In this document: positions 1 through 34,246 of the stretch, piece after piece
Layout of the letters: each line of letters starts with the position of its first letter
Position numbering within the stretch: position 1 is the first letter of the stretch
Source: Candidatus Vesicomyosocius okutanii
GTDB taxonomy: Bacteria > Pseudomonadota > Gammaproteobacteria > PS1 > Pseudothioglobaceae
DNA length: 64,000 nucleotides
Reading direction: 5' to 3'
Assembly: GCF_000010405.1 (NCBI RefSeq)
Contig: NC_009465.1
Location: forward strand, 806,001-870,000
Translations under genes and position numbers: made by a program
The notes under the pieces: model-generated
Seen by the model: only the letters and a program-made list of their open reading frames with translations
The model's database searches: none
Told to the model about the DNA's origin: nothing

Positions 1-65
1 TAACCATATATACATTTTTATTTAACTATTTATAGCAGTGCTAATTATGACAAAATATTATCCTA

Positions 66-1301
66 ATGAGTATCGAATTTATAATTTCTAATCAATACTT
101 ACGCTCCAATCAAAAAAAGGGTTTTATTTCCTTTATTCCTGGAGTTTCTATAGTGGGTTTAATTCTATCTGTCGTCACCTTGATTACAGTGTTATCTGTT
201 ATGAATGGATTTCACAAAGAACTTAGAGACAGAGTACTAAATACCATTTCTCATTCATATATTACTCAATACAATAATTTAGTTGATAACTGGCAAAATT
301 TACAAACTAAAATTAACAAACATCCTAATGTTGTTAGTACCTCACCTTATATTGAAAAATATGCTTTGCTAAGTACACACAATGGTACTCAAGGAGTTAA
401 TGTACGAGGTATTAGACCTAACTTGGAAAAAAAAACTTCTATTCTATTAGACAAAATTAAGTCTGGTAATGCCAACTTGCTTAAATCAGATATTTTAATT
501 GGTACAGGATTGGCAACACAACTAGGTTTAATTATTGGAGATAAAATTACACTACTTACACCTAAATTATCTTCTAATATTATAGGCATTCAGCCAAGGT
601 TTAAACGCTTTACTATTAGTGGAATCTTTGATGCTGGTATTAGCGAATATGATAATAACTTAGCATTTATTAGCTTAGAACAAGCACAAAAGTTGTATAT
701 TATGAAGGATAAAGTCTCTGGTATTCGACTTAAGGTTGATGATTTATTTAATGCTAAGAAGATCACTAATGAAATTATTACTAACTTGTTAGACGGTCGA
801 TATTATGGTATTGACTGGACTGAACAAAAAGCCAACTTTATTAAAGCGCTGAATCTTGAAAAACAGATGATTAGTATTATAATGTCGCTCATTATTGCAG
901 TTGCTGCTTTTAATATTGTTTCTATGATAGTAATGGTGGTAAATGATAGAAAAGCCGATATTGCTATTTTAAGAACACTTGGCATGACACCTAATCGTAT
1001 TGTAAAAATATTCCTTTATCAAGGATTAATAATTGGTCTAATTGGTATTACCATTGGTAGTATCTTAGGTGTATTACTCTCTCTTAATATTGAAATGATT
1101 GTTAGTGGTATTGAGTCTATTTTGGGCTTTCAGTTCTTTCCAAAAGATTTATTCTATATCAGTCGATTTCCTTCTGAAATACATATAATAGATATCGTTA
1201 AAGTTATCTTTGGCGGTTTTATTTTAATAACAATTGCCTCTATTTATCCAGCCAAACTAGCAGGAAAAATAGATATTGCCAAAGTGTTAAATCATGAATA
1301 A
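66..1301 (+). CDS. lolC: Lipoprotein-releasing ABC transporter permease LolC/LolE
   Basis: Inner-membrane permease of the Lol system, which extracts outer-membrane lipoproteins from the inner membrane and passes them to LolA. The 411-residue length is normal for LolC/E. The layout is an N-terminal membrane segment (about residues 20-48), a large periplasmic domain (about 50-260) and three C-terminal membrane segments (about 268-405), typical of the MacB/FtsX-type permease fold. The last 8 bases overlap the start of the ATPase gene lolD, so the two are co-translated. Only one permease gene is present here. Whether it is LolC, LolE or a single LolF-like permease cannot be settled from this window. 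Confidence 0.9.
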   Translation: MSIEFIISNQYLRSNQKKGFISFIPGVSIVGLILSVVTLITVLSVMNGFHKELRDRVLNTISHSYITQYNNLVDNWQNLQTKINKHPNVVSTSPYIEKYALLSTHNGTQGVNVRGIRPNLEKKTSILLDKIKSGNANLLKSDILIGTGLATQLGLIIGDKITLLTPKLSSNIIGIQPRFKRFTISGIFDAGISEYDNNLAFISLEQAQKLYIMKDKVSGIRLKVDDLFNAKKITNEIITNLLDGRYYGIDWTEQKANFIKALNLEKQMISIIMSLIIAVAAFNIVSMIVMVVNDRKADIAILRTLGMTPNRIVKIFLYQGLIIGLIGITIGSILGVLLSLNIEMIVSGIESILGFQFFPKDLFYISRFPSEIHIIDIVKVIFGGFILITIASIYPAKLAGKIDIAKVLNHE

Positions 1302-31557: not shown

Positions 31558-31827
31558 ATGAAAATAATTGTTGACAACATTAAATGTGTTGGATGTATAA
31601 ATATCATCACTAAAAAATTAATAGCAACCTTTAACACTAAAAAAGTGAATATTAATATTGAACAAGGTATTGTAAAAATTGACGTAGATAGTACTAAAAA
31701 ATCTGAGGTCGCCCAAGTTTTGCTAAATCTTGGCTATCCTGAAATAAATTCAATACACGGCTTTAATTCTACCAAAGCCAAAGCCAAATCTTTTGTTTCT
31801 TGTACCATCGGCAGAATAAATATATGA
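31558..31827 (+). CDS. Small heavy-metal-associated (HMA) domain protein
   Basis: An 89-residue protein with a single ferredoxin-like HMA fold: IIVDNIKCVGCINIITKK carries the metal-binding C-x2-C at about residues 9-12, and the later LLNLGYPEI matches the HMA C-terminal strand. A lysine-rich tail with one further Cys follows. Likely a copper or other soft-metal chaperone, but no P-type ATPase is nearby. Its stop overlaps the thiS start (ATGA), an unusual pairing. Confidence 0.75.
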   Translation: MKIIVDNIKCVGCINIITKKLIATFNTKKVNINIEQGIVKIDVDSTKKSEVAQVLLNLGYPEINSIHGFNSTKAKAKSFVSCTIGRINI

Positions 31828-32024
31828 CATTTACCCTAAATGGAAAACTATTAAAAATGGCTGATAACTTAAACGCATATGATTTAATTATTCAACTAGG
31901 TTATGAAAATCAACGTATTGCATTAGAAATCAATGAAACCATTATCCCCAAATCTAAACATGCTACATTTGCCCTAAATGAAGGAGACATAATCGAGATT
32001 ATTAAAGCAGTCGGTGGTGGTTAA
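31824..32024 (+). CDS. thiS: Sulfur carrier protein ThiS
   Basis: Ubiquitin-like carrier that bears a C-terminal thiocarboxylate for thiazole synthesis in thiamine biosynthesis. From the ATG at 31824 it has 66 residues, starting MTFTLNGK and ending in the diagnostic AVGGG (Gly-Gly end). The start overlaps the HMA protein stop by four bases; an upstream in-frame start at 31800 is not needed. thiG, the usual next gene, is not in this window. Confidence 0.9.
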   Translation: MTFTLNGKLLKMADNLNAYDLIIQLGYENQRIALEINETIIPKSKHATFALNEGDIIEIIKAVGGG

Positions 32025-32541: not shown

Positions 32542-33588
32542 TTATACCATCCAGTCTTTTTGAATTTCATCAGCTGAGAATGGCTTAATGTTAAGTGTTT
32601 GCATAGTGTCAACATCTAGTTTTATTTCTATATCTACGCTGTCGTAGCCTCTACCTTGAGAATAGCGTGCTAAAATTTTAGCAGCGATTTGTAAATCTGC
32701 TTGATTAGGGTCTCCATCAATCAATGCTAATGGTCCATTGCAACTAGTGGGATATAAATTAGCATATTGATTACGATAGCCTTCTAAGAATTTAACTTCT
32801 CCTTCTTCACGAGCAATAATCATTTTAAAACGTGGATTTGGGCGAATATGTCTGCCAACTTTAAGCATCATTAAATCATCGAGTTGATAATTACGATTAC
32901 CACGAGATTTCCACATATCCACTAGTTTATCTGAATATTGTTTGTCAGTTAAAAAACAACAACCACCCGCAGGTGTAGCATAACCATCAAACCCATATTC
33001 TTTTGCTAAAAACATTTGTGGTTTGCGCGTACGCCCTGAAAAATCCAATAATTTTTCTCTATCTACCCAGTTCTCAATCTCTGCTTTAGTAACTGGTAAA
33101 TGTTTTGCACACAATGGACGTAATAATAAATCATTAGCGCCTGATTCTAATTGAATAATAGGCATGGTTTCTTTACGCTGTGACATAGGACGTTGACCCA
33201 CGACTTCACCTGTAATAATAAAGTCAAATTCATATTCAACCATCCATTCTTTAGCTTTTTTAACCATAAAGCCCTTACAATCTAGACATGGATTCATATT
33301 TTTCCCATAACCATGTTTAGGGTTTAACAGCACATCACGATATTCTTCAATAACATCAATAATATGTAATTTAATACCTAATTTCTCCGCTACCCATAAT
33401 GCATTATTACGTTTTAGCCCGTTTTTCTTTTGTTTACGAATGGTATTCGTATGCCCTTCCATGCAAAAACCAGTAAAAAAATTAATGCCTTCTACATGAA
33501 TACCTTGATCTAATATTATCTTAGTGCTTAACAGTGAGTCTAATCCACCTGAAATTAATGATACAGCTTTAATTTGTTTGTTTGTCAT
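32542..33588 (-). CDS. PP-loop ATPase related to tRNA thiolation enzymes (MnmA/ThiI-like)
   Basis: A 348-residue protein. The N-terminal PP-loop SLISGGLDSLLS (about residues 10-21) binds ATP for adenylation. CLDC (about 102-105) and GGCC (about 209-212) are candidate catalytic or metal cysteines, a pattern seen in thiouridylase relatives. The last third (KVGRHIRPNPRFKMI onward) faintly resembles an NFACT-R/DUF814-type domain. It is related to, but is not, canonical MnmA or ThiI. It stands opposite a tusE-like gene, suggesting a sulfur-relay role in tRNA or cofactor thiolation, which is inference. Confidence 0.65.
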   Translation of the reverse strand: MTNKQIKAVSLISGGLDSLLSTKIILDQGIHVEGINFFTGFCMEGHTNTIRKQKKNGLKRNNALWVAEKLGIKLHIIDVIEEYRDVLLNPKHGYGKNMNPCLDCKGFMVKKAKEWMVEYEFDFIITGEVVGQRPMSQRKETMPIIQLESGANDLLLRPLCAKHLPVTKAEIENWVDREKLLDFSGRTRKPQMFLAKEYGFDGYATPAGGCCFLTDKQYSDKLVDMWKSRGNRNYQLDDLMMLKVGRHIRPNPRFKMIIAREEGEVKFLEGYRNQYANLYPTSCNGPLALIDGDPNQADLQIAAKILARYSQGRGYDSVDIEIKLDVDTMQTLNIKPFSADEIQKDWMV

Positions 33589-33629
33589 GTCTATTTTCTG
33601 GTATAATTGGAATAGTGTTATTCGACTTT

Positions 33630-33656
33630 TTTATTTAACATTAAATGTTAAATAAA
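33630..33656. repeat. 13-bp perfect inverted repeat, possible operator
   Basis: The arms at 33630-33642 and 33644-33656 are exact reverse complements around one central base (core TTATTTAACATT / AATGTTAAATAA). No T-run follows on either strand, so it is not an ordinary terminator. Its place 42 bases upstream of the PP-loop start suits a regulator site. AT-rich DNA can give such palindromes by chance, but 13 exact pairs is notable. Confidence 0.5.
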
Positions 33657-33913
33657 TGATAATTACCAGTATCTAAACTATCTCTACTTAGTCTTGAAAA
33701 ACTGAAAAACACTAAATAGTACACATTTTTACACCTAATTTAACTTACCCTAATCATCACTATATAACACATTTATCACTTAAGAATCAAATTTATTTAA
33801 ATGGTAAAATAAATTATACCATATAGAATATTGACAATACCTTATCATATATCCTCATTTATAACCTTGATAAATATTTTTATAAAAACCAAGTAAAAAA
33901 TTAAGGTATTAGG

Positions 33914-33919
33914 TATAAT
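33914..33919 (+). promoter_or_regulatory. Candidate -10 box for the tusE-like gene
   Basis: A perfect TATAAT lies 37 bases upstream of the ATG. The -35 position carries no recognisable hexamer, so the call is weak. Confidence 0.3.
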
Positions 33920-33955
33920 AGATACATTTGTAATGTAGAATACAAGGCAACCAAA

Positions 33956-34246
33956 ATGGAACTAAAAAGAACAGGTAATGGCTACTTAGTTGATCCAACT
34001 ATTTGGACAGAGGATATTATGCATAAAATGGCCAAAGAAGACGAAATCGAATTAACTAGAAGCATGGTTAATCAAATTCTTACAGCTAGAAAGTATTTTG
34101 AGGAAAATTCATCAGTACCACCTATTAGAACCTTTGCCAAAGTCGTTGGTATTGATAAAAAAATCCTATTTAAAGAATGGTTAACTGGTCCAATGAAACC
34201 TATTACTAAATACGGTGGTATGCCACAACCAACAGGTTGTGTTTAA
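33956..34246 (+). CDS. tusE: TusE-like DsrC-family protein with a single C-terminal cysteine
   Basis: A 96-residue DsrC/TusE family member. It ends QPTGCV, keeping the penultimate cysteine (Cys95). The place 11 residues earlier, where DsrC has its second cysteine, is Thr84. This is the TusE pattern: such proteins relay persulfide for tRNA s2U34 modification rather than cycle through a disulfide. The rest (WTEDIMHKMAKEDEIELT) keeps the family frame. The gene is solitary and diverges from a PP-loop thiolation-like enzyme, so a joint sulfur-relay role is plausible. Confidence 0.85.
   Translation: MELKRTGNGYLVDPTIWTEDIMHKMAKEDEIELTRSMVNQILTARKYFEENSSVPPIRTFAKVVGIDKKILFKEWLTGPMKPITKYGGMPQPTGCV

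Follow-up and report, generated by a model that had tools for sequence, protein, structure and literature searches.

In 2014 Burroughs and Aravind reportedly predicted that NFACT-R, together with TusA-like proteins, takes part in a new route of tRNA 4-thiouridylation. The enzyme described here, in which a ThiI-like catalytic domain is joined to NFACT-R, is a member of that predicted family with new genomic support, and together with a TusA paralog it is presumably the gene pair of the prediction; an earlier note on this DNA spoke of an undescribed pathway, which is too strong given the 2014 prediction. The present analysis describes a near-exclusion of ThiI, an association with DUF1722, the presence of two cysteine types, and a presumably broken operon.

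Among the titles and abstracts found in the open-licence literature, none concerns experimental work on the ThiI-NFACT-R family, and the PF02568-PF18297 combination is used as a marker of 4-thiouridylation in Thaumarchaeota (PMC9239080). Two groups of genomes encoding the 4-thiouridine (s4U) eraser RudS are described as having no E. coli-type ThiI, for which differently built ThiI homologs or an absence of s4U are supposed (PMC11417400). Among thiolases, roles have been assigned to MnmA residues Cys102 and Cys199 and to ThiI Cys344 (PMC4041423), and Fe-S dependence is described for archaeal ThiI/TtuI and the CxxC-C type of MnmA (PMC8584467, PMC9957541), with CxxC-C MnmA and Methanococcus maripaludis ThiI being Fe-S enzymes according to the first of these, a review.

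The window, i.e. the whole stretch of 64 kb that was analysed, corresponds to C1:806001-870000 of a single-contig genome of 1,022,154 bases, and among named organisms it is closest to Candidatus Vesicomyosocius, Ruthia, and Bathymodiolus symbionts. The PP-loop and TusE-like open reading frames reported earlier are both present and divergently oriented, and the CLDC and GGCC motifs of the PP-loop protein lie where they had been placed, at residues 101-104 and 208-211 (Table 1). In the window's family (SUP05/vesicomyid symbionts) the enzyme gene sits between thiS and alaS. The ThiS-family gene is present in all 36 family contigs, and in the window it overlaps a gene for an HMA-like protein (31558-32024, + strand), convergent with the enzyme gene. 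The HMA-like gene is found in most family contigs but is missing in L127, L128, L130, and L132-L136, as well as in L120 and L126, where the contig ends. ThiS, its gene being convergent with the enzyme gene in the family, was also considered as a candidate carrier. In G019 (contig 33) the enzyme gene matches in two pieces that are 6 nt apart and leave residues 163-184 of the query uncovered, a pattern that an in-frame deletion would produce.

Table 1. Features of the PP-loop enzyme locus, with positions in the window
Feature	Position	Strand	Basis
PP-loop enzyme, proposed tRNA 4-thiouridine synthase; ThiI-like catalytic domain and NFACT-R; 348 aa	32542-33588	-	Pfam, AlphaFold, structure matches
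NFACT-R_2 domain, RqcH-like, RNA-binding, replaces THUMP	32548-32856	-	Pfam (residues 245-347); RqcH/FBPS fold matches
GGCC active-site loop, residues 208-211 (Cys210, Cys211)	32956-32967	-	Alignment and structural alignments
CLDC, Cys101 and Cys104, CxxC part of the CxxC-C set	33277-33288	-	56/56 sequences
Cys42, marks the five-Cys type (mostly TusA-linked)	33463-33465	-	56/56 sequences
PP-loop motif SGGLDS, residues 13-18, ATP site	33535-33552	-	Sequence; invariant across the 56-sequence alignment
Perfect AT-rich palindrome of 27 bp, upstream of both genes, unconserved	33630-33656	.	Palindrome scan
TusE-like single-Cys DsrC-family protein, 96 aa; probably neighbour rather than partner	33956-34246	+	Profiles, alignment, distribution

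The PP-loop protein matches the Pfam ThiI domain at residues 5-184 (45.6 bits) and NFACT-R_2 at its C-terminus (110.6 bits), both above the Pfam cut-offs, and is thus a PF02568-PF18297 fusion; the same domain order is present in L161, L309, and L327. The earlier view that it is neither MnmA nor ThiI is borne out by the equivalog profiles, with scores of 38.4 bits against a cut-off of 236.95 for MnmA (TIGR00420) and 44.7 bits against 264.5 for ThiI (TIGR00342). THUMP is not among the Pfam matches with E values up to 1, and because the PP-loop motif already begins at residue 13 there is no space for the N-terminal ferredoxin-like and THUMP module of canonical ThiI. The CxxC and GGCC motifs set the protein apart from canonical ThiI as well, as does the TusA gene next to it in most relatives. 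ThiI is nevertheless the best match of the fold: the AlphaFold model (pLDDT 83.6, pTM 0.72, from 16 sequences) aligns with the Thermotoga maritima ThiI-RNA complex (4kr6; 2c5s is a further ThiI structure) with Z 16.2, 2.5 A over 166 residues, and 25% identity in a second-look alignment. The aligned ranges (4..216 to 173..350) place residue 210 at ThiI 344 if the end is ungapped, in a loop of low confidence; the model is least reliable in its active-site loops, with residues 207-209 below pLDDT 50. The predicted structure therefore has a ThiI-fold PP-loop domain with SGGxDS and a cysteine at the position of Cys344.

Other PP-loop folds follow closely, including YcfA (Z 15.5), LarE (15.0), Streptococcus pneumoniae MnmA 2hma (14.1), and MnmA 2det (12.8), so the substrate cannot be named from the fold alone; by Foldseek alone MnmA chains rank first and ThiI fourth. 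TtuI was not seen among the structural matches, which excludes nothing as to TtuI, and a PDB sequence search gives weak matches, to four MnmA chains and one unrelated chain. The C-terminal domain matches RqcH (8s1u; Z 14.2, 2.1 A over 101 residues) and FBPS (5h3w; Z 14.1). The reading in the earlier note of an enzyme of the tRNA-thiolation type, distinct from MnmA and from canonical ThiI, is supported.

Five cysteines (Cys42, Cys101, Cys104, Cys210, and Cys211) are invariant in 56 enzyme sequences. A second type has three cysteines, the CxxC pair plus one from the GGC(C) loop, and comprises the diverged L161 and L327 proteins and homologs from Fusobacterium and Haliovirga; Cys42 is missing in L161, L327, and three Fusobacteriota homologs, and which of Cys210 and Cys211 is retained depends on the alignment. 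The CxxC pair is kept in L161, in 13 of 13 homologs of one set, and in 20 of 20 of another. In the PDB sequence alignment, with the construct offset removed, Cys104 aligns with MnmA Cys102 and Cys101 with Asp99, and at the ends of the structural alignments Cys210 is in register with MnmA Cys199 and ThiI Cys344. The catalytic domain thus contains a CxxC and a third cysteine, the same three-Cys CxxC-C layout as archaeal Fe-S ThiI/TtuI and CxxC-C MnmA, from which the protein differs in its RNA-binding domain. Since CxxC-C MnmA and ThiI are described as Fe-S enzymes (PMC8584467), an Fe-S cluster is a fair expectation here too, and by analogy the enzyme is probably an Fe-S protein of the CxxC-C type. 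The two additional cysteines may have been gained together with TusA, changing a sulfide-using enzyme into a carrier-fed one; we put this forward tentatively, and the match between five cysteines and TusA is not strict, since some five-Cys copies have no adjacent TusA gene.

Gene order and co-retention show a TusA paralog to be the conserved partner of the enzyme. In genomes that do not belong to the window's family, a gene for a TusA-like protein lies on the same strand directly 3' of the enzyme gene, commonly abutting or overlapping it, and is found there in 50 of 54 testable class genomes (38 of 41 families); this is a partial sample of 55 from 176 enzyme-positive non-family genomes, chosen from best matches and picked loci with long contigs favoured (G037, G038, and G040 came from the searches of relatives), with G369 excluded as untestable and five duplicate loci merged. 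Of 27 named contigs from outside the family, 25 could be tested, and 21 of these have the same arrangement. In other classes, where 28 of the 42 loci found were read, TusA lies within about 400 nt in 21, about 700 nt away in two, and nowhere in the stretch in five. L161, L327, and the Fusobacteriota homologs, all of the three-Cys type, lack a TusA neighbour, so TusA is not required across the whole superfamily.

In the window's family the linkage is absent from all 59 testable loci (two overlapping samples), the window's own locus included, but the paralog itself is retained. In a tree of 90 TusA sequences, based on few columns and with rough bootstrap, the 50 linked copies and three second-copy family sequences all fall into a single clade (96/98) that is distinct from the canonical copies; scores against two HMMs of the clades extend the assignment to 37 family genomes, where the cognate paralog is present in 30 of 30 enzyme-positive and 2 of 7 enzyme-negative genomes (G024 and G027). 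G012 and G022 (each a single contig) and G033 lack both enzyme and paralog, while G029 of the same genus (g2) has both; s4U is sensitive to near-UV light, so a link between this joint absence and sunlight is worth considering. In the window's genome the paralog is at C1:473642-473866 (+), between hemF and glnA, and elsewhere 36 of 55 enzyme loci have glnA nearby. The simplest history is presumably an ancestral enzyme-tusA-glnA locus from which the enzyme gene later moved away. An in-place exchange with ThiI at the glnA locus was considered and set aside, as glnA is near 2 of 28 ThiI loci compared to those 36 of 55 enzyme loci; the stretches around the 28 ThiI genes contain no match to the enzyme-linked TusA.

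The distribution of the enzyme is complementary to that of ThiI. Among 369 genomes of the class, the enzyme (E 1e-30 or better) is present in 180 and ThiI (TIGR00342) in 28, of which 25 are above the curated cut-off, and the two occur together in a single genome (G256) against 13.7 expected; Fisher values for such comparisons derive from related genomes and overstate independence. By family, 87 have the enzyme, 23 have ThiI, and one (f105) has both. Neither is found in 162 of the 369 genomes, and s4U there would be missing or otherwise made. The DUF1722 domain of RudS is present in 89 genomes from 61 families. The enzyme occurs without ThiI in 73 of these genomes, ThiI without the enzyme in 13, both in one, and neither in two, so that 87 of 89 genomes have one or the other against 49.9 expected; the DUF1722 model does not tell RudS fusions from stand-alone DUF1722 proteins. 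The two exceptions, G246 and G359, belong to families (f88 and f110) with the enzyme in other members. PF18297 alone is unspecific, also matching in Bacillus subtilis, Thermus, and Thermotoga controls (presumably RqcH), and other-class matches examined were therefore checked with a full-length profile.

Closer to the window, 39 of 58 relatives encode the enzyme, and ThiI is above its cut-off in two, both enzyme-negative. MnmA is above its cut-off in 56 of the 58, including the window's genome, which also encodes TilS and a TtcA-like protein (207 bits, below the cut-off of 272); of the PP-loop tRNA enzymes looked for in that genome, ThiI alone is missing. With MnmA and the TtcA-like gene present, the enzyme is unlikely to be a replacement for either.

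Considering the observed architecture, invariant cysteines, gene order, co-retention, and complementarity, we think it likely that the enzyme is an alternative tRNA s4U8 synthase of bacteria lacking ThiI, fed by the TusA paralog. The ThiI complementarity and the DUF1722 association indicate s4U, and on this distribution s4U rather than another thiolation is most likely the product. The substrate, cluster, and direction of sulfur flow would be as follows. The protein would act as a ThiI-type tRNA thiolase with an RqcH-like NFACT-R in place of the THUMP module; NFACT-R would grip the tRNA, and the SGGLDS pocket would adenylate U8, as the chemistry of the family suggests. Persulfide sulfur would come from a dedicated TusA paralog that receives it from a cysteine desulfurase, and Cys101 and Cys104 with one GGCC cysteine would form either a [4Fe-4S] cluster of the CxxC-C type or a persulfide/disulfide pair, from which sulfur would pass to the activated base. 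In the five-Cys type, Cys42 and the second GGCC cysteine may relay the TusA sulfur. In the window's family the operon presumably broke, tusA remaining by glnA and the enzyme gene coming to lie between thiS and alaS, with the TusE-like gene as its frequent divergent neighbour.

This neighbour is a DsrC-family protein, scoring 66.8 bits with Pfam DsrC (cut-off 24.9) and 57.5 with the DsrC/TusE subfamily model TIGR03342 (cut-off 53.5), but 32.1 against a cut-off of 191 with the TusE equivalog NF008562. Alignment with the DsrC of the window's dsr operon agrees with the earlier description of Cys95 as present and of Thr84 at the position of the upstream DsrC cysteine; the loop insertion of DsrC is lacking, and identity is 55-63% to the orthologs L165-L167 versus 38% to the window's DsrC. 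A third DsrC-family protein of the genome (L002:1474-1815, at about 600.4 kb of G000:C1) ends KRKGGY and has no C-terminal cysteine. The TusE-like protein most likely works in a separate sulfur relay, which may lead to MnmA and use DsrEFH as TusBCD, and its link to the enzyme is probably a chance arrangement within one family. That it acts specifically as the TusE for MnmA in s2U34 synthesis, and is adjacent to the enzyme gene incidentally, we consider an even proposition: it has the single cysteine of the TusE type and no DsrC insertion, MnmA and DsrEFH are encoded, and G045 and G050, the only non-family relatives with an ortholog, carry it on a different contig from the enzyme (a thioredoxin-like gene is upstream in G050, and by eye, with this one gene scanned, the neighbours show no theme in common with G045), but the equivalog score is low and several family genomes have MnmA without the ortholog. 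This reading is compatible with a TusA-fed s4U synthase.

For the enzyme itself the question is whether it thiolates a target other than U8, such as another tRNA uridine or cytidine, rRNA, or a ribosome-rescue RNA, the last proposed because NFACT-R is an RqcH domain. PP-loop thiolases are diverse, the fold matches to ThiI, YcfA, LarE, and MnmA differ little in Z-score (from 16.2 to about 14), and the NFACT-R of RqcH sits on the large ribosomal subunit (PMC8012679). We nonetheless regard such a target as unlikely, as complementarity with ThiI and the association with DUF1722 indicate s4U, and MnmA and the TtcA-like enzyme coexist with this one.

The TusE-like gene and the enzyme do not always co-occur. 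An ortholog (112 bits or more) is present in 28 of the 58 relatives, 27 of them enzyme-positive, so that 12 of the 39 enzyme-positive relatives have none, and five of these 12 (G038, G040, G043, G046, and G052) give no match to the DsrC-family query at E 0.001; a role as obligate partner is rejected as a general rule by this distribution. Among the named family contigs, 34 are testable for the TusE-like gene (L111 and L158 are not), and in eight of them it is missing between an otherwise neighbouring alaS and enzyme gene. The flow of sulfur proposed earlier, from DsrEFH through the TusE-like protein to the enzyme, would connect energy metabolism with RNA thiolation. It is unsupported and very unlikely, also when limited to the SUP05/vesicomyid-symbiont family: in its favour the family has the TusE-like gene rather than TusA next to the enzyme (26 of the 34 contigs), the ortholog is in 25 of 30 enzyme-positive versus 1 of 7 enzyme-negative family genomes, and enzyme and TusD are associated in the class (107 observed, 76.1 expected), but among enzyme-positive relatives the ortholog is missing from 5 of the 30 in the family and from 7 of the 9 outside it, a TusD/DsrE match (E 1e-10) is lacking in 73 of the 180 enzyme-positive genomes of the class, the cognate TusA is retained in all 30 enzyme-positive family genomes, and MnmA, the known client of TusE, is encoded in the genome.

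The 13-bp palindrome reported in the shared upstream region is real, with two perfect 13-nt arms about a 1-nt centre. No other palindrome in the 64 kb combines arms of at least 13 nt with a centre no longer than 1 nt, and one in 5000 first-order resamples of the intergenic stretch yielded such a palindrome. It is not a conserved signal, as the corresponding regions of 15 relatives contain one palindrome with arms of at least 9 nt, in L103 at a similar place but with different letters (28 bp), and a conserved operator is set aside on the same grounds. Promoter-like matches upstream show no excess (three, against a mean of 4.0 in shuffles).

The TusA-fed s4U synthase reading bears on annotation, as homologs are filed under other names: the Fusobacteriota proteins L309:5007-5987, with ThiI and NFACT-R_2 by Pfam, and L310:3998-4999, which matches the full-length enzyme profile, are annotated as 7-cyano-7-deazaguanine synthase and MnmA/TRMU family protein. 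It also offers a testable answer to the question, left by the account of ThiI-less RudS genomes in PMC11417400, of where their s4U comes from. With the enzyme in 180 of the 369 class genomes and ThiI in 28, much of the s4U of the class may be the product of this enzyme.
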